This document shows, piece by piece, positions 2,922 to 11,577 of a stretch of 21,953 nt of DNA. Below the pieces are notes generated by a model. The model worked only from the letters and a program-made list of their open reading frames with translations, had not been told where the DNA came from and did not search any database. Origin of the DNA: a virus. The stretch lies in IMG/VR virus record IMGVR_UViG_3300035698_000065, positions 1 through 21,953 of that record. One strand, 5' to 3'. Position 1 is the first letter of the stretch. The number at the start of each line of letters is the position of its first letter. The position numbers were made by a program, and so were the translations under genes.

Positions 2922-3351
2922 GCAGAGGCAATCAAGGGTTGTGCCACAGTTAGATGGCTGGGGTGGTGTTAGAGCTGTGCAGAACAAGTTAAGGCGTTCA
3001 GACACGATTATTCAGAACCGTGAGGCTGTTGCGTATACCTTGTTGTGCATGGCCAACACCAAGTTAACGGATATTATGAAGTGGGATGACCAAGGCAATG
3101 TACAGGTCAAGGCCAGTGATGATATCCCTGAACACGCACTACAGGCTATTAAGAATATAAAGGTAAGAAAGGACAAGGACGGGGCGCAGACGCTTGAGAT
3201 AGAGTTGTATGACAAGGTGGGTGTGCTTAGGTTGCTTGCTAAGGCTAGTGGGTTGCTAGACAACCCTGATGATGGGTCTGATAAGCCCAGTGTGATAGGC
3301 ATTAATGTGCAAGCACCTGAAGACATAGAGGTCAAAGATGGCACGGACTAA
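2911..3351 (+). CDS. terS: Terminase small subunit
   Basis: This 146-residue protein immediately precedes and overlaps terL. Residues about 49-117 (NTKLTDIMKWDDQGNVQVK, then SDDIPEHALQAIKNIKV, then a strand and YDKVGVLRLLAKASGLLD) match the central and C-terminal part of Terminase_2-type small subunits as I know them: 'D-I/V-x-W', 'S-D-D-L/I-P', 'K-L-x-A-L-x-x-L-x-x-x-x-G-L'. That part oligomerises and contacts the large subunit. The N-terminal DNA-binding segment is short (about 48 residues, basic, with PQLDGWGGVRAVQNKL) and not an obvious helix-turn-helix, which is somewhat unusual. AAGGAG 5 bp upstream supports the ATG at 2911. The frame overlaps the HNH-like gene at its start and terL by 14 nt at its end, so all three should be co-translated. 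Confidence 0.75.
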   Translation: MATRQRQSRVVPQLDGWGGVRAVQNKLRRSDTIIQNREAVAYTLLCMANTKLTDIMKWDDQGNVQVKASDDIPEHALQAIKNIKVRKDKDGAQTLEIELYDKVGVLRLLAKASGLLDNPDDGSDKPSVIGINVQAPEDIEVKDGTD

Positions 3352-4894
3352 AGAGCGGTCTACTAAAGAGTTGCCAGCAGTCGGGCTAAACCTGAACTTC
3401 AGAAAAAGCCCAGTGGTATATAAGTTCTTGCAGTCCAATGCCTTTGTGCGTGGCTTATTGGGTCCTGTGGGGTCTGGCAAGTCATATGGATGCGCGGCTG
3501 AGATCATGTTGCGAGCAGTCAAGCAAAAGCCTAGTCCTATAGACGGCATACGCTATACGCGCTTTGCTATCGTCAGGAACAGTTACCCGATGCTTAAGAC
3601 CACGACTATTAAGACTTGGTTGGATTTGTTCCCTGAGAACACGTTTGGCTCTATGTTGTGGACGCCCCCGATCACTCACCACATTAGACTGCCTGCTCGC
3701 GGTGATGCAGCAGGAATTGACTGTGAAGTTATATTCTTAGCCCTAGACCAGCCTAAAGACGTCAGGAAACTGCTGTCATTAGAGCTAACAGGTGCTTGGG
3801 TTAACGAGGCACGGGAGCTACCAAAGGCGGTGATTGACGGCTTAACGCACAGGGTGGGGCGATATCCTACTAAGCGCGACGGTGGCGCTACGTGGTGCGG
3901 GGTGTGGATGGACACTAACCCAATGGATGACGACCATTGGTGGTACAAGATTGCAGAAAAAGACAAGTTAACAGGGCTATACGCTTGGGAGTTCTTCAAG
4001 CAAGCTGGTGGAGTGGTAGAGGTAGATTCTGAAGACTTACCGGAAAACCCAGAGGCTAATGACCACATCTATGCCAATGGCAGATGGTGGAAGATTAACC
4101 CCAAGGCTGAAAACTTAGACAATCTGCCGCCTGGTTACTACATGCAGATGCTAGGAGGCAAGAACTTAGACTGGATACGGTGCTATGCCGAGGGTAAGTA
4201 CACCTATGTGCAAGAGGGTAGACCCGTTTGGCCAGAGTATGACGACAATGCCATGGCTGGGGAAGTGGAATATGACCCATCGGTGCCGTTGCAAGTGGGT
4301 TTGGACTTTGGTCTGACCCCAGCGGCTGTCATTGGACAGCGTCTAAACAACGGTCGTTGGATAATATTGCATGAGATTGTTACTTTTGACATGGGATTGG
4401 AGCGTTTTGGTCAACAATTGCTAGCAGAGTTGAACGCCAGATACCCTAAAGCACAGATGATGATCTGGGGTGACCCTGCTGGTATGCAACGAGATGCCAT
4501 TTATGAGGTCACAGCCTTTGATTACTTGCGTACATTGGGTCTAAGAGCGCAACCCGCACCTAGTAATAACTTTCAAGTACGGCGTGAAGGCTCTGCATTA
4601 CCCATGCAACGCCTGATTATGGGCAAGCCTGGCCTGATTGTCAGCAAAGACTGCAAGTTATTACGCAAGTCTCTAGCTGGTGGCTACCATTTCAAGCGGG
4701 TATCGGTAGGTGCAGGCCAAGAACGGTTTAAAGACACGCCAAATAAGAACGAACACTCCCACGTTGGTGACGCATTTGGCTATTTGCTAACTGGTGGGGG
4801 CGAGCATAGGCGCATGACCAAGACTCCGCTGTTGTCTCAAAGCAACTTTGTAGGACAATTAAATGCAAATACTGATTTTAATGTGTTTGATTAG
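3338..4894 (+). CDS. terL: Terminase large subunit (packaging ATPase-nuclease)
   Basis: At 518 residues it has the normal length and both domains of a large terminase. The ATPase half shows a Walker A motif GPVGSGKS (42-49), a Walker B/catalytic-glutamate segment GAWVNEARE (152-160, Glu157) and a coupling segment MDTNP (191-195). The RNase H-like nuclease half shows LDFGLTP with Asp323, WGDPAG with Asp379, and EHSHVGDAF with Asp477, the usual acidic triad. The enzyme drives DNA into the prohead through the portal and cuts the concatemer. It overlaps terS by 14 nt. The next gene does not follow directly: 428 bp of noncoding, strongly structured sequence separates terL from the virion genes. 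No frameshift or missing key residue is seen. Confidence 0.97.
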   Translation: MARTKERSTKELPAVGLNLNFRKSPVVYKFLQSNAFVRGLLGPVGSGKSYGCAAEIMLRAVKQKPSPIDGIRYTRFAIVRNSYPMLKTTTIKTWLDLFPENTFGSMLWTPPITHHIRLPARGDAAGIDCEVIFLALDQPKDVRKLLSLELTGAWVNEARELPKAVIDGLTHRVGRYPTKRDGGATWCGVWMDTNPMDDDHWWYKIAEKDKLTGLYAWEFFKQAGGVVEVDSEDLPENPEANDHIYANGRWWKINPKAENLDNLPPGYYMQMLGGKNLDWIRCYAEGKYTYVQEGRPVWPEYDDNAMAGEVEYDPSVPLQVGLDFGLTPAAVIGQRLNNGRWIILHEIVTFDMGLERFGQQLLAELNARYPKAQMMIWGDPAGMQRDAIYEVTAFDYLRTLGLRAQPAPSNNFQVRREGSALPMQRLIMGKPGLIVSKDCKLLRKSLAGGYHFKRVSVGAGQERFKDTPNKNEHSHVGDAFGYLLTGGGEHRRMTKTPLLSQSNFVGQLNANTDFNVFD

Positions 4895-5210
4895 TGTGAT
4901 ACAGTAGAGCTGTTGCTAGCAGAGGCGACAGAGACCGTTTAGGTCTGTTTCTTACCACAGGGCGCCAATCCTGTGGCTCTGCTAAGGAACAGAACCTAAG
5001 CGGTTTTGTTTTGCAACCGCCAGTACCGTCGGGAGAGATAACGGCAGGGTCTGGGGATAGTCGCTACTGTGGGATCAGGTGTGAGACAGCGACAAGGGTG
5101 GCGAAGTTAGCGCCCTTCACCGAACGGCTGACGGGTTCCGTGGCTCCAGAGAGCAGGATGAAGGACTTAGTCTTCCACTAGGATAGGCTAGGTTCGTCCA
5201 CCAAAGAGCA
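4895..5210 (+). ncRNA. Candidate structured noncoding RNA downstream of terL
   Basis: No credible reading frame exists here on either strand. The sequence is full of self-complementary segments read as RNA. TAGCAGAG (4917-4924) pairs with CTCTGCTA (4977-4984). Inside, CCACAGG (4955-4961) pairs with CCTGTGG (4970-4976). TCTGTTTC (4944-4951) pairs with GGAACAGA (4986-4993, one G-U). Together these make a tight H-type pseudoknot in which helices abut with 0-1 nt gaps. Then come GCGGTT/AACCGC (5000-5005, 5015-5020), CCGT/ACGG (5026-5029, 5041-5044), GTCG..CTGT/ACAGCGAC (5060-5070, 5086-5093), GGCG/CGCC (5100-5103, 5111-5114), ACGG/CCGT (5124-5127, 5138-5141), GCTC/GAGC (5143-5146, 5151-5154) and GAAG/CTTC (5160-5163, 5172-5175). 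ACAGTAG (4901-4907) can also pair with CTACTGT (5064-5070), competing with one hairpin. Strand and ends are inferred from terL direction and helix extent. No tRNA, tmRNA or group I intron core is recognised. Confidence 0.55.
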
Positions 5211-5322
5211 GATCTTACTACTACAAACTAAATATCTAATAGATACCGTAGTGCTATAAGCTATATCAAATATTATTAATATGCTTTAGAATTTGCATAG
5301 GATAACTACGTCGGAGTCGACA
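5211..5322. promoter_or_regulatory. A+T-rich dyad-containing segment before the virion genes
   Basis: This 112-bp stretch changes sharply to A+T-rich sequence after the structured region. It contains the odd palindromes TATCTA-A-TAGATA (5233-5245) and TATTA-T-TAATA (5271-5281). TATAAG (5255-5260) and TAGAAT (5287-5292) are possible -10 elements, but neither has a convincing -35 at 16-18 nt. It may hold a promoter or operator for the genes starting at 5323. I see no coding potential. Confidence 0.3.
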
Positions 5323-5754
5323 ATGCCTTTTATTACTGGTGCTTTAATTATTGGTGGTATGGCTTTAGCTGGTTCTTTTTACACGGCAGATCAAGCAAGA
5401 CGCCAAGCGGGTGCTGCAAGAGACCAAGCACAAAAGCAATCTGCTGCTACTTCTCAACGTGCGGCTCAACAGTTGTCTGTCCAGCGTGAGCAAGCCAAGA
5501 CAGCAAGAGAGCGATTGAACTTTGAAGTAGGCCAATCTGCTGAACAAAGGCAATTGCTTGATACGCAAGCCAAACAAGCTGCGGAATCACTGCAAACCCA
5601 GCAACGCGAGATGGCAGAGGAAGAATCTAATCGAATGCGTCAACTGCGTCGCGGTGGTAGGCGATCTTTATTGTCTCAAGAAAGATTAAACCCTGAAGCC
5701 GGTTTAGGCGATTTTGGTTCTGTTCAATTGGGCGCTGGTAACGGTCTAGGATAA
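5323..5754 (+). CDS. Small virion-type protein: hydrophobic N-terminus and coiled coil
   Basis: This 143-residue protein begins MPFITGALIIGGMALAGSFY, a hydrophobic glycine-rich segment (about residues 3-20) that could span or insert into a membrane. A long Gln/Ala/Arg-rich helix follows (about 21-108), probably coiled coil. The C-terminus is Gly-rich with the motif GGRRSLLSQ (111-119). I do not recognise a named family. Short proteins with hydrophobic N-termini and a 'GRRSLL'-type C-terminus occur near terminase and portal genes of podoviruses and are often minor virion or ejection proteins. ATG 5323 is chosen because GGAG lies 6 nt upstream; a TTG at 5293 in the same frame would place that Shine-Dalgarno inside the gene. 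The next gene starts 9 nt after the stop. Function is unknown. Confidence 0.7.
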   Translation: MPFITGALIIGGMALAGSFYTADQARRQAGAARDQAQKQSAATSQRAAQQLSVQREQAKTARERLNFEVGQSAEQRQLLDTQAKQAAESLQTQQREMAEEESNRMRQLRRGGRRSLLSQERLNPEAGLGDFGSVQLGAGNGLG

Positions 5755-5763
5755 GGAGCGGTT

Positions 5764-6369
5764 ATGCCTTTTGCACAAGTATCTAAAACAATGGCAGCAC
5801 GCAGGCAGGCTCGCAGACGTCCTCGCGGGTTAGCTGAAATACAAGCCATCCAATCCCAGTATCAAGAAGATGTGATGGGCGCGCAATCTAGGTTGACCGG
5901 TGCACAAACAGCGGCAACACAAGAGTTTTCTGATCTTAGTAGTCAATACGAGTCACAATTGACTTCATACCAAGATGAATTAACTAACTACAACAAGCGA
6001 GCAGACCAGTTTGCTAGCAGGGTTGATAGTTATATTGGCACGCTTGATGAAATCAAACGTGTTAAAGACCAAAATATGATTAACTTATACGTTAACTGGA
6101 CCGGTTTAGCCCGTATGTTTGGTGGTGAAGACCGGCCAATGGAACAAGTGCCCGCAACACCAGCAGATCCAGGTTCTTTTACAGAATCATTTGATCGTCC
6201 TGTGCCTAAAGCGCCACAAGCGCCATCGTTTCAAGAAGATGTTTCAAGGTTTCAAAAAGAAACGCAAGAGGCCAAGGTTGGCATGGAGCGTGAAATAGGT
6301 GAGCGTCGTGCAGCAACGCAACGCGCTCGCTTTCGTATGCGTGATCGTCCCTTAATGACAGGAGCTTAA
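5764..6369 (+). CDS. Coiled-coil virion-type hypothetical protein
   Basis: This 201-residue protein has a basic N-terminus (AARRQARRRPRG, about residues 11-22). A long Gln-rich, probably coiled-coil region runs from about 24 to 105, followed by YVNWTGLARMFGG (about 109-121) and a Pro-rich linker (about 125-155). A second helix with many Glu, Arg and Lys ends in RMRDRPLMTGA. AAGGAG lies 5 nt before the ATG. The C-terminal 'R-x-R-x-x-P-L-M-T-G' resembles the 'RRSLLS' end of the upstream protein, so the two may share a binding partner. I do not recognise a family. Position between terL and portal suggests a minor structural or DNA-ejection component, which is inference. Confidence 0.7.
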   Translation: MPFAQVSKTMAARRQARRRPRGLAEIQAIQSQYQEDVMGAQSRLTGAQTAATQEFSDLSSQYESQLTSYQDELTNYNKRADQFASRVDSYIGTLDEIKRVKDQNMINLYVNWTGLARMFGGEDRPMEQVPATPADPGSFTESFDRPVPKAPQAPSFQEDVSRFQKETQEAKVGMEREIGERRAATQRARFRMRDRPLMTGA

Positions 6370-6370
6370 G

Positions 6371-6523
6371 ATGAAAGATGGTTTGTACAAAAACATGAAC
6401 GACAAGCGCAAGCGCATAGAAGCTGGGTCTGGAGAAAAGATGCGCAACAAGGGCGACAAGGGTGCGCCTACTGATGCAGCGTTTCGCAAAGCAGCTAAGA
6501 CGGCAATGCGGAAGAAGAAGTGA
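6371..6523 (+). CDS. 50-residue basic protein of the conserved MKDGLY...GSGEKMR type
   Basis: This short frame encodes MKDGLYKNMNDKRKRIEAGS, then GEKMRNKGDKGAPTDAAFRK and a basic end ATKK-like tail (AKTAMRKKK). I recognise the pattern 'M-K-x-G-L-Y ... K-R-x-R-I-x-A-G-S-G-E-K-M-R-x-x-G-x-K-G-A-P-T' from small proteins encoded beside head genes in many phages; function unknown. It is very basic (many Lys and Arg), so nucleic-acid or capsid-interior binding is possible. GGAG lies 7 nt before the ATG. The TGA overlaps a GTG start of the next gene (GTGA at 6520-6523), indicating coupling. It is easily missed because of its length, but start, ribosome site and sequence pattern all support it. Confidence 0.8.
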   Translation: MKDGLYKNMNDKRKRIEAGSGEKMRNKGDKGAPTDAAFRKAAKTAMRKKK

Positions 6524-7107
6524 GCATTAACGTAAAGTTAGAATCCCTTGATACCAAGTCTAGGTTTGTCACCAAAGCGTATCTTGATGAGAACAACAAT
6601 CCTCAGCTAGTCGGCTCGGAGTTGCCGTTGCCTGTTGCTGACATTGTCGCATTGCGCACGTTTGAGGGCAGAACTTTTGGTATCGGTGCAGTAAAGAATT
6701 TTGAAAACAAGCTGGCAGCCGGTGCAAGTCTTGATTTAGCTATCGCTTGGGCAACTGGTGTCTCACCAAGAATTACATTAACGGGGTTGGTTGGTGGCAA
6801 TGCTATTGCTTATTTGTATGAGGGCGCCACTGTGTCTGGTGGCACAACTGTCGCGGCAGTTAATTTAAAAAGAACATCTACAAGAACAAGCGAATCTGCG
6901 GCTTTACTGCAACCAACAGTCTCAAGCACCGGTACTCTGGTGTTAGAGCAGTTGCTTCTTGGGGGCATTGGTAAAAAAGCAGGTGGTGGTGGGGATAATT
7001 CAGGTCGTTTGTATTTGAAACCGCTAACCACCTACTTATTCAGGGTAACTAACAAAGATTCCGGTACCCCGCATGTAGCAGAAATATTGTTGGAGTGGTA
7101 TGAGTAA
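6520..7107 (+). CDS. Beta-rich virion-type protein (possible head decoration/fibre)
   Basis: This 195-residue protein starts at a GTG that overlaps the preceding stop (GTGA); no better start with a ribosome site is seen. It is rich in Gly, Thr, Val and Leu in alternating strand-like patterns: PQLVGSELPLPVADIVALRT (about residues 29-48), GNAIAYLYEGATVSGGTTV (about 93-111), SSTGTLVLEQLLLGG (about 135-149). The end, YLFRVTNKDSGTPHVAEILLEWYE, is strand-like. There is no signal peptide or enzyme motif. A beta-sandwich fold and position just before the portal suggest a capsid decoration or head-fibre protein. I know similar hypothetical proteins from phage structural modules but cannot name a family. 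Structural role is inferred. Confidence 0.68.
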   Translation: MSINVKLESLDTKSRFVTKAYLDENNNPQLVGSELPLPVADIVALRTFEGRTFGIGAVKNFENKLAAGASLDLAIAWATGVSPRITLTGLVGGNAIAYLYEGATVSGGTTVAAVNLKRTSTRTSESAALLQPTVSSTGTLVLEQLLLGGIGKKAGGGGDNSGRLYLKPLTTYLFRVTNKDSGTPHVAEILLEWYE

Positions 7108-7136
7108 ACTTACAAAACCGTCAAGGGTGAAAGACA

Positions 7137-8747
7137 ATGGCTAAGATGAAGTACGAAGGCAAAAAGTTGCCGGTTGGTGAAATCATCAAACGAGCCGACC
7201 TCGCCCAGCGCAAAAAAGATTTATTCGAGGACTTGTACCGCGATTGCTATGAGTTTGCCCTGCCTCAGCGTCAGCTTTATGGCCACTGGGAAGGCAACAG
7301 CGTTGGCAACAAAAAGATGACCCGTGTGTTTGACTCTACAGCGATCAACTCCACGCAGCGTTTTGCGAACCGCTTACAGTCCGGTATCTTCCCGCCTCAG
7401 CGCAACTGGTGTCGTCTAGATCCTGGGCAAGACATCCCTGAAGACCGCCGAGTTGAGGCGCAAGCTGTGCTTGATTTTTATAACAACAAGATGTTTGCCC
7501 TTATTAAGCAGTCAAACTTTGACATTGCCATTGGCGAGTTCTTGCTAGACCTGTGCGTTGGTACGGCTGCTATGCTGGTGTTGCCTGGTGACGACGTCAA
7601 GCCAATTAACTTTATTCCTGTGCCAATGTTTTTGGTGGCATACGAGGAAGGCGCAAACGGTAAGGTCGACAAGGTTTACCGTAAGATTCGCATGAAGGCT
7701 GAGGCTGTTTCGCAGCAATGGCGTGATGCAGAACTGTCAGAGTCGGTCAAGCAACGCTACGAAGAAAAGCCAACAGACGATGTTGACCTGTTGGAAGCGA
7801 CTATTCACGACTCGGAGCGTGGCGATTGGTGCTATCACGTAATTGACCAAGCCAGTAAAGAAGAAATTGTGTACCGCCGCATGGACTCATCGCCTTGGGT
7901 TGTGAGCCGTTACATGAAAGTAGCCGGTGAGATCTATGGCCGTGGCCCGTTGGTCACTGCCTTGCCTGATATTAAGACGCTTAACAAGACGCTTGAGCTA
8001 GTGCTAAAGAATGCCTCGCTTGCGGTGTCTGGTGCTTATACTGCGGCTGATGATGGGGTGCTAAACCCACAGACTGTCAAGATTGTGCCAGGTGCGATCA
8101 TCCCAGTGGCCAGAAACGGTGGGCCACAAGGCGAATCACTGCGCCCACTCGCTAGGGCGGGTGACTTTAACGTGTCTCAGATCGTGGTCAATGACTTGCG
8201 CATGAGCATTAAGCGTGTGTTGCTAGACGAGTCGCTGCCGCCAGACAACATGTCTGCGCGTTCTGCCACAGAGGTGGTCGAGCGTATGCGTGAGTTGGCT
8301 CAGAACCTAGGATCAGCCTTTGGTCGCTTGATTGACGAGACAATGATCCCGTTGGTTACGCGCATTCTGTCTGTAATGAACGAGCGCGGTCTGATTGACT
8401 TGCCGTTGCGGGTCAATGGCCTTGAGGTCAAAGTGTCACCAGTTTCCCCGCTAGCTATGGCGCAGAACATGGAGGAGATCAACAGCATTGTGCAGTTTAT
8501 GCAGCTAACAAGCGCTCTAGGCAACGAAGGCGCGTTGGCAGTTAAGACTGGCGACCTGATTGACTACTTAGGCGAAAAGCTAGGCGTGCCCGCTAAGCTG
8601 AGAACATCTGCGGCCGAGCGCGCTTACCTGATTGAGGAGCAAAGGAAGCTGGCTCAAGAAGACCAAGCTATGATGGCGATGGCGGGTCAGCAACAAGCCG
8701 TTGCTCAAAACCAAATGGACGCTCAAGCGGCGCCACCTATGGAGTAA
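7137..8747 (+). CDS. Portal protein (T7-like head-tail connector)
   Basis: At 536 residues this has the size of T7-type portals. The N-terminus carries DCYEFALPQRQLY (about residues 36-48) and VFDSTAINSTQRFANRLQSG (64-83) followed by IFPPQRNW, the hallmark of the Head-tail connector family. SRYMKVAGEIYGRGP (about 259-273) and PDNMSARSATEVVERMREL (about 368-386) are also typical portal segments. The last ~50 residues are Gln/Ala/Met-rich and flexible, as in other portals. Twelve copies form the ring through which TerL pumps DNA and to which the tail tubular proteins attach. The Shine-Dalgarno region AAGGGTGAAAG lies just upstream of ATG 7137. The cupin gene starts 6 nt after the stop. Confidence 0.93.
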   Translation: MAKMKYEGKKLPVGEIIKRADLAQRKKDLFEDLYRDCYEFALPQRQLYGHWEGNSVGNKKMTRVFDSTAINSTQRFANRLQSGIFPPQRNWCRLDPGQDIPEDRRVEAQAVLDFYNNKMFALIKQSNFDIAIGEFLLDLCVGTAAMLVLPGDDVKPINFIPVPMFLVAYEEGANGKVDKVYRKIRMKAEAVSQQWRDAELSESVKQRYEEKPTDDVDLLEATIHDSERGDWCYHVIDQASKEEIVYRRMDSSPWVVSRYMKVAGEIYGRGPLVTALPDIKTLNKTLELVLKNASLAVSGAYTAADDGVLNPQTVKIVPGAIIPVARNGGPQGESLRPLARAGDFNVSQIVVNDLRMSIKRVLLDESLPPDNMSARSATEVVERMRELAQNLGSAFGRLIDETMIPLVTRILSVMNERGLIDLPLRVNGLEVKVSPVSPLAMAQNMEEINSIVQFMQLTSALGNEGALAVKTGDLIDYLGEKLGVPAKLRTSAAERAYLIEEQRKLAQEDQAMMAMAGQQQAVAQNQMDAQAAPPME

Positions 8748-10124: not shown

Positions 10125-10154
10125 TTTGTCTCCTTTCTGTTAGTTCAGAACTCG

Positions 10155-10182
10155 CCCCAGTCTCTTGGCTGGGGTTTTTTTT
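10155..10182 (+). terminator. Intrinsic terminator after the scaffold gene
   Basis: CCCCAG (10155-10160) and CTGGGG (10169-10174) form a 6-bp G+C-rich stem with an 8-nt loop, followed immediately by eight T (10175-10182). This is a textbook Rho-independent terminator and separates the portal-scaffold unit from the capsid unit. Confidence 0.88.
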
Positions 10183-10187
10183 GAAAG

Positions 10188-10367: not shown

Positions 10368-11210
10368 ATGGCTATTAATTTATCTACTGCCTTCGTCACC
10401 CTGTTTGATGCAGAAGTTAAACAAGCGTATCAGGCTCAGGCCATTTTACGCGGTGCTGTCCGTCTGCGTTCAGGTGTTGAAGGTGCTACCTATAAGTTCC
10501 CCAAGATTGGTCGTGGTGTTGCGCAGGTTCGCGTACCCCAGACTGATGTAACCCCACTTAATGTGGAATATGGTCAAGTGACTGTTACGCTTGCTGACTA
10601 CATCGCTGCTGAATACAGCGACATTTTCATGCAGCAGAAAGTCAACTTTGACGAGCGTACCGAGTTGGTGCAGGTTGTCTCAAACGCAATTGGCCGTCGT
10701 CAAGACCAGTTGATCTTGGACGCATTGACCGCATCGAGCACCAGCTTGACTGTTGCAAATGACATTGGTGGTACTGACAGCAACCTTAACGTGGCTAAGC
10801 TACGTGAGGCCAAGCGCTTATTGGACGCCAAAAACGTTCCTATGCGTGACCGTCACATCATCATCCATGCCGATTCTTTGGCTTCGTTATTGGGCGAGAC
10901 GTCTGTTACTAGCTCGGACTTCAACACCGTTAAGGCGTTGGTTCAGGGCGACATCAACACGTTCTTGGGCTTTACGTTCCACACACTCGGTGATCGTGAT
11001 GAGGGTGGCTTGCCTATTGATGGCTCTAGCGACCGTACTGTTTTCGCTTTTCATCGTGAGTCGCTCGGTATGGCTGAGGGCATTTCCCCCAAAACCGAGA
11101 TCAACTATGTTCCTGAGAAGACGTCTTTCTTGGTTGCATCCATGTTCTCGGCCGGCGCAGTTGCGATTGACGATGAAGGTATCGTCAAAATCACCTGCCG
11201 TGAAGCGTAA
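10368..11210 (+). CDS. Major capsid protein
   Basis: This 280-residue protein has its own promoter and leader and follows the scaffold gene, the standard place for the major capsid gene. The N-terminus (AFVTLFDAEVKQAYQ, about residues 8-22) is a helix like the N-arm of HK97-fold coat proteins. YKFPKIGRG (about 42-50), EYGQVTVTLADYIAAEYSDI (about 67-86) and NAIGRRQDQLILDAL (about 107-121, spine helix) are typical, as are RHIIIHADSLASLL (about 162-175) and FLGFTFHT near the P-domain and A-domain segments. AAAGGA precedes the ATG by 6-7 nt. It forms the icosahedral shell on the scaffold. Sequence similarity to T7 gp10 is not obvious, so the fold call rests on pattern and position. A decoration-like gene follows in the same unit. 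Confidence 0.92.
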   Translation: MAINLSTAFVTLFDAEVKQAYQAQAILRGAVRLRSGVEGATYKFPKIGRGVAQVRVPQTDVTPLNVEYGQVTVTLADYIAAEYSDIFMQQKVNFDERTELVQVVSNAIGRRQDQLILDALTASSTSLTVANDIGGTDSNLNVAKLREAKRLLDAKNVPMRDRHIIIHADSLASLLGETSVTSSDFNTVKALVQGDINTFLGFTFHTLGDRDEGGLPIDGSSDRTVFAFHRESLGMAEGISPKTEINYVPEKTSFLVASMFSAGAVAIDDEGIVKITCREA

Positions 11211-11505: not shown

Positions 11506-11525
11506 CGGTAGGCGCTAGTGAACCG

Positions 11526-11561
11526 AGGCCAGCTACTTAACCCAGGTGGCTGGCCTTTTTT
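11526..11561 (+). terminator. Intrinsic terminator ending the capsid unit
   Basis: AGGCCAGC (11526-11533) pairs perfectly with GCTGGCCT (11549-11556), an 8-bp stem with a 15-nt loop. Its 3' arm runs straight into a T-tract (11556-11561). It closes the capsid-decoration transcription unit shortly before the tail genes. Confidence 0.88.
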
Positions 11562-11577
11562 ATATTGAGAGGTTGCT

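Follow-up and report, generated by a model that had tools for sequence, protein, structure and literature searches.

The window analyzed here is a 21,953-bp viral fragment (IMGVR_UViG_3300035698_000065, positions 1-21,953), and most of the viral contigs with which we compared it are fragments as well. Its large terminase gene, terL (3338..4894, plus strand; PHROG 2, E 2.5e-23), is followed by a gene-free gap of 428 bp that runs from the terL stop at 4894 to the next credible ATG at 5323, in agreement with the first-pass annotation of this DNA. That ATG starts a 143-aa gene of unknown function (5323..5754, plus strand; PHROG 9212), which is the first gene 3' of the RNA described below and opens a co-directional structural operon. 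Within the gap, the RNA has terL as its upstream neighbor, outside the RNA itself, and an AT-rich stretch on its 3' side. At 5265-5292, past the RNA and ahead of the 143-aa gene, is a second, weak promoter-like site (TAGAAT, 8/12), and similar TAGAAT sites are also found 3' of terL in relatives that do not have the RNA. Farther into the window, two strong intrinsic-terminator-like hairpins with long T-runs (10154-10183, -16.6 kcal/mol, and 11525-11563, -22.2 kcal/mol) flank the major head protein gene at 10368-11210.

No Rfam family matched the 5' half of the RNA (4900-5012), which we refer to as the leader and whose elements all lie on the plus strand of the window. These elements follow one another in the order promoter, hairpin P1, a pseudoknot that joins the P1 loop to a bulge, P2, which is a long hairpin resembling a terminator, and a U-run. 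The candidate promoter (4876..4905) combines an extended -10 element, TGA-TACAGT (TG at 4897-4898, hexamer at 4900-4905), with a weak -35 element at 4876-4882 and is itself weak, with 7/12 matches; we infer that the RNA starts at about 4911-4913. P1 (4910..4931), as read from the sequence, pairs CUGUUGC (4910-4916) with GCGACAG (4925-4931), and its entire 8-nt loop (UAGCAGAG, 4917-4924) is the 5' strand of a conserved, covarying pseudoknot (4917..4984) whose 3' strand is CUCUGCUA at 4977-4984. Folding and covariation both point to P2 (4931..5007), a 17-bp, nearly perfect stem with an outer (4935-4943/4995-5003) and an inner helix (4944-4951/4986-4993, with one G-U pair), inside of which lies hairpin P3 (4955-4961/4970-4976). 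The pseudoknot, P3 and the inner P2 helix occur exactly where the first-pass annotation had placed them. Immediately 3' of P2 is the U-run UUUUGUUUU (5004..5012), in which the window's own runs are 4+4 and into which A-U and G-U pairs prolong the stem. Weak evidence also marks GCAAC at 5013..5017 as a possible partner (P0) of the RNA 5' end, GUUGC at 4912-4916: the P0 duplex has a mean energy of -7.68, compared to -6.61 when the partners are permuted (sd 0.28; lowest value in 100 permutations -7.33), and across 53 relatives the tendency is 3.8 sd above permuted partners by a statistic that ignores relatedness. Such a pairing could form only after read-through and would be a third and weaker signal.

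Relative to shuffled sequences, the predicted excess of folding stability is large, with z = -5.2 for 4895-5215 and z = -6.0 for 4911-5017, and zero shuffles were as stable. The helices are also maintained by compensatory change in homologues. In an alignment of 53 diverse sequences, 91.9% of the cells in the pseudoknot, P2 and P3 were paired compared to 79.4% after shuffling, the covariation score was 0.365 versus 0.156, and 0 of 500 shuffles reached any of five measures, these statistics not being corrected for kinship as they are in R-scape. Sliding one partner by a single column reduced pairing to 52-54%. Changes on both sides were seen in 22 of 28 pairs, including 5 of the 6 pseudoknot pairs counted and 16 of 17 pairs in P2, where 93.5% of cells were paired. 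At least seven contiguous pseudoknot pairs could be formed by 96% of the 53 sequences, as opposed to 19% when the 5' strand was shuffled, and compensated variants include UAGCAGAG/CUCUGCUA, GUGGCAAC/GUUGCCAC, UAACGCG/CGCGUUA and GUCGAAA/UUUCGAC; P1 has at least four pairs in 44 of the 53 relatives. Together, fold stability, covariation and occurrence in relatives bear out the initial proposal that the gap encodes a real, conserved, pseudoknotted noncoding RNA.

The 3' half of this RNA is already known, and it is the leader, lying outside Rfam, that is new. A cmscan of the window against Rfam found a single family, Betaproteobacteria-1 RNA (RF02932), at 5018..5136 on the plus strand (full model 1-120, 93.7 bits, gathering threshold 49.4, E 1.1e-16), which overturns the earlier statement that no known core is present. 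The conserved loops of the family are likewise found in the window copy. All eight related records tested scored above the RF02932 cut-off with exactly one copy each, and for the helix at alignment columns 66-69/95-98, 8 to 14 sequences were changed on both sides per pair. On its own, the Rfam core (5012-5136) gave z = -0.2 and is therefore undetectable from energy alone, and RNAalifold returned only a weak partial structure for the whole core alignment because the 5' part of the core is poorly aligned. A candidate stem, GUGG/CCAC, that would enclose the core's 3' hairpin was no improvement on shuffled sequence and was rejected. The RNA extends past the Rfam model to at least about 5203, since a covarying hairpin (5163-5172/5186-5195) lies outside the model in a 3' extension (5137..5203, plus strand) that also contains a conserved CCACC(A); this hairpin has at least seven contiguous pairs in 72% of 43 sequences compared to 25% when shuffled, with many compensated variants.

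Copies of RF02932 are present in Xenophilus, Variovorax, Ottowia and Thauera genomes and in Acidovorax phage AP1, and exceed the cut-off in 6 of 401 Xenophilus-family genomes, a sporadic presence in hosts that is the expectation for prophage cargo. After dereplication, phage and prophage copies have two main settings, behind a primase gene or behind the leader. Those of the primase setting begin 11-21 nt after the primase stop and do not have a promoter of their own, as in the Xenophilus and Variovorax genomes, and the AP1 copy is in a comparable setting at 39 nt; in four further contigs (L204, L212, L223 and L227), inspection by eye indicates that RF02932 is preceded by a different promoter and hairpin. 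In L223, an array of seven tRNA genes (6516-7229, minus strand) is found shortly behind the Betaproteobacteria-1 RNA, and in MW202545 (L003) two overlapping annotated 'hypothetical proteins' at 5804-6261 sit atop the RNA and are probably spurious. The sources consulted gave no stated function for Betaproteobacteria-1 RNA, and our literature search found no paper naming it, an absence of little weight. One conceivable function is replication, whereby the transcript and the AT-rich stretch behind it would serve as origin and primer near primase genes. The many core-only copies located 11-21 nt behind primase genes and the AT-rich stretch 3' of the window RNA fit this idea, but many other copies are far from replication genes, and cumulative GC skew over the first 50 kb turns near the RNA weakly in AP1 (9 kb versus 11.9 kb) and not in MW202545, a disagreement on which we rejected GC skew as a sign of an origin; overall, we regard an origin role as very improbable.

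We next turn to the leader in other phages. Searching with a leader pattern matched 114 stretches of viral contigs, and leader loci amounted to 135 (about 130 phage contigs) before and 90 after removal of near-duplicates and repeats, counts that are too low because the search pattern is a near-consensus sequence under which diverged leaders, for example that of the window itself, are under-counted. Another pattern, ACAAGGGTGGCGAAG, gave mostly chance matches in viral contigs and was discarded. A sigma70-like promoter with at least 9/12 matches is found in the 67 nt 5' of the leader at 62% of 89 dereplicated loci, compared to 2.4% of positions drawn at random from those contigs, and the -10 element in relatives typically ends 22-33 nt 5' of P2, i.e. 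just 5' of P1. Behind P2, 97% of the 89 loci have a T-run of at least five, as opposed to 3.8% of random 40-nt windows. The leader thus has the form of an intrinsic terminator or attenuator, namely a stem with G+C followed by a U-run in an operon leader. A model of the leader found no match in other viral and bacterial loci totaling 1.29 Mb, core-only Betaproteobacteria-1 loci included, or in 401 Xenophilus-family genomes, the latter being a weak negative obtained without a positive control genome. With the queries used, only OM049504 and MW202545 matched in INPHARED; leader-bearing phages are nearly missing from named phage genomes as searched with these queries, which may explain why the leader has been overlooked.

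While the leader is constant, the sequence that continues it is not: next comes one of at least eight structured 3' modules that are unrelated to each other, or else a start codon with nothing in between. Clustering the 350 nt behind the U-run gave groups of 40, 25, 20 (the Betaproteobacteria-1 group), 13, 6, 3 and 2 members and several singletons, a module count that varies with the clustering cut-off, and an Rfam scan of module representatives gave no match but Betaproteobacteria-1. A second sub-module, CCGTACTCCGCACGATAG...GCGCGGAAGG, is common to some of these groups, so exchange may be finer-grained and some groups may be partly related. Leaders without a 3' module are exemplified by L033 (407-521, minus strand; a diverged leader at E 8.7e-7 with the compensated pseudoknot TTCGCAC/GTGCGAA) and by L063 and L066 (3069-3188, minus strand; a diverged leader at E 0.005, the pseudoknot in L063 compensated as TTAGCGC/GCGCTAA), in all of which the U-run abuts the ATG of either a Lys-rich 74-aa ORF or an HNH endonuclease gene.

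Three contigs whose terL is 95% (L004), 91% (L005) and 76% (L340) identical to that of the window all have a leader behind terL. In L004, it comes after one small ORF and carries a Betaproteobacteria-1 RNA that is 92.5% identical to the window's, whereas the 3' modules of L005 and L340 are without significant similarity to Betaproteobacteria-1. L005 also encodes an ortholog of the window's 143-aa gene (68% identical), preceded there by another 3' module. Comparison of the window with L005 shows a 3' module exchanged between orthologous flanks.

These comparisons also bear on the packaging or virion-assembly role that the first-pass annotation had guessed at from the position beside terL. In the window, L005 and L340 the RNA immediately follows terL, and in L004 it lies close by, as might be expected of a terminase-linked RNA akin to the phi29 pRNA. 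Among 80 contigs with terL at least 79% identical, many of which are fragments, the RNA is behind terL in only two, L004 and L005; L033, L063 and L066 have the leader elsewhere, on the opposite strand, and by eye the relatives without the RNA often have a simple promoter-like sequence behind terL instead. In other phages the RNA adjoins genes for a helicase-primase, ParB, thyX or a T7-gp4-like primase-helicase, or precedes terL, and most carriers have it by unrelated genes. Because it is rare behind the terL of relatives, has modules swapped behind a 91%-identical terL and has other gene neighbors, a packaging role is not supported and an RNA tied to the terminase is scarcely credible. Rather than a packaging RNA, the leader looks like a mix-and-match element that controls phage operons.

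At 76 of 81 loci, the next gene 3' of the leader is read in the same direction, usually beginning 0.2-0.4 kb behind the U-run, and the gene 5' of the leader is divergent in 21 of 76, so the cassette often opens an operon; these directions come from our own simple codon-usage gene caller and are approximate. First downstream genes include structural genes and genes for a tail fibre, ParB, a primase-helicase, a helicase loader, an oxygenase and HNH, and this variety together with co-direction argues for a cis-acting, gene-independent role at operon starts. In L372, a 777-aa helicase ORF lies 5' of the leader and has an intein-like insertion inside its DEAH motif. Comparison across loci shows a cassette composed of a promoter-like start (in most relatives), P1, the covarying pseudoknot, P2, the U-run, an exchangeable module or a start codon, and co-directional genes.

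Two other readings have to be set against a cis-acting role in transcription. The first is a phage RNA 'moron', a stable small RNA of about 100 nt to the U-run, or longer, that would act in trans on host or rival functions and use the 3' modules as different effectors. An own promoter, a constant leader joined to highly diversified modules, varied genomic neighborhoods and the filing of RF02932 by Rfam as an sRNA gene are consistent with this reading, which we nonetheless consider improbable in view of the nearly invariable co-direction of the next gene, the module-less leaders directly ahead of a start codon and, by eye, no obvious intrinsic terminator behind the 3' modules. The second is that P2 and the modules shield the operon mRNA at its 5' end or mark sites at which RNase III would cut it away from the terL message. 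A long, nearly perfect double-stranded stem would suit this purpose, several modules would be equally suitable and the type of gene would be irrelevant, but the conserved U-run, the strictly kept pseudoknot and the fact that the 3' modules are conserved down to the detail of their sequence would all be left unexplained, and we judge it quite improbable.

We therefore put about even confidence in the view that the RNA acts in cis as a modular operon leader, with attenuation or antitermination as its means of controlling transcription. Under this proposal, host RNA polymerase would start at about 4911 and reach P2 and the U-run, where a fraction of complexes would stop, as they do at intrinsic terminators. 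The P1 loop could pair with the P2 bulge while the 3' strand of P2 is still to be transcribed, an order of events that is feasible because 4977-4984 leaves the polymerase ahead of that strand; this pairing would hinder or delay full closure of P2 and favor read-through into the 3' module and on into the operon, which here holds the structural genes. The balance could be tipped by a phage or host factor or by kinetics alone. The positions of modules inside and at the start of operons suggest that they too act in cis on transcription or the message. The general idea of alternative conformations, raised in the first-pass annotation, is a good reading of this arrangement; the specific long-range pairing put forward there (4901-4907/5064-5070) was not kept, as it overlies the -10 hexamer, lies 5' of the inferred RNA start and is absent in relatives. 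The switch itself is only a candidate mechanism, because the pseudoknot and full P2 may coexist: with a median of 11 nt, the linker might just span the about 18 bp required, and predicted median energies are comparable, at -9.0 kcal/mol for the pseudoknot and a stronger -12.4 kcal/mol for outer P2. It would also be odd for a terminator to hide a downstream RNA module unless read-through is common or regulated, and the window's own weak promoter (7/12 with an extended -10) likewise counts against the proposal.

An antitermination mechanism is exemplified by phage HK022, whose putL lies directly behind its promoter and makes polymerase ignore terminators far downstream (PMC9378689). A put-like processive antiterminator, in which the leader, either alone or together with the 3' module, attaches in cis to polymerase during elongation, would fit a compact, pseudoknotted RNA located right behind a promoter and ahead of a co-directional operon, a position in which HK022 put acts without protein factors (PMC9378689). 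The window operon has two strong terminators downstream, near 10175 and 11556, on which it could act, and core-only copies are found inside operons, directly behind primase genes. Against this, put has two stem-loops within about 70 nt and neither a terminator U-run of its own nor exchangeable modules (PMC9378689), whereas the leader has its own terminal U-run; the two are likened here by description, not sequence; and AP1, with a core and no leader, shows hardly any intrinsic terminator on the coding strand over 50 kb. On balance, we rate processive antitermination of this kind as unlikely, although it is the foremost alternative to our proposal.

Returning to the modular operon leader, a broader proposition, which we advance only tentatively, is that these phages share a combinatorial RNA control system. 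It would pair a constant promoter-pseudoknot-terminator leader, belonging to phages and not to hosts, with unrelated folded modules that are exchanged between orthologous operons and each act on polymerase or message in an undescribed way. The leader, its position at operon starts and the swapping of modules provide a testable context for Betaproteobacteria-1 RNA, and about a hundred environmental phage contigs with a constant leader and exchangeable modules would offer a new supply of natural RNAs that control transcription.

Among known systems, the phi29 packaging RNA is also a small phage RNA near packaging genes, a likeness that holds in this one window; it gave no match, and a constant tie to packaging genes of the phi29 type was not found for the RNA described here (2 of 80 close relatives). 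GOLLD and ROOL are likewise big folded RNAs of phage genomes, but the window RNA is smaller and matched neither of them at the Rfam gathering threshold or in a permissive scan of 4850-5330, and they are not known to have a leader and terminator architecture. Most other phage copies of Betaproteobacteria-1 RNA share the leader or sit directly behind primase genes; compared to the Rfam model, the window RNA is preceded by a non-Rfam leader, is about 60 nt longer at its 3' side and is located in phage late genes. Riboswitch and attenuator platforms have a terminator hairpin in the 5' leader that takes part in alternative pairings, as may also be the case here, but the genes downstream of the leader share no function, which makes a metabolite-sensing role unlikely. 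The lambda late leader (PR'-qut-tR', 6S RNA) consists of a promoter, a short leader and an intrinsic-terminator-like hairpin before an operon, an arrangement like that seen here, with the difference that the terminator stem of the present RNA contains a covarying pseudoknot and has more folded RNA behind it. HK022 put binds RNA polymerase at the beta' zinc-binding domain and suppresses termination at distal sites. Like put, the leader is a folded RNA with which a phage operon begins, behind a sigma70 promoter and probably cis-acting; it differs from put in its length of about 100 nt, its pseudoknot and the U-run directly behind its long stem.
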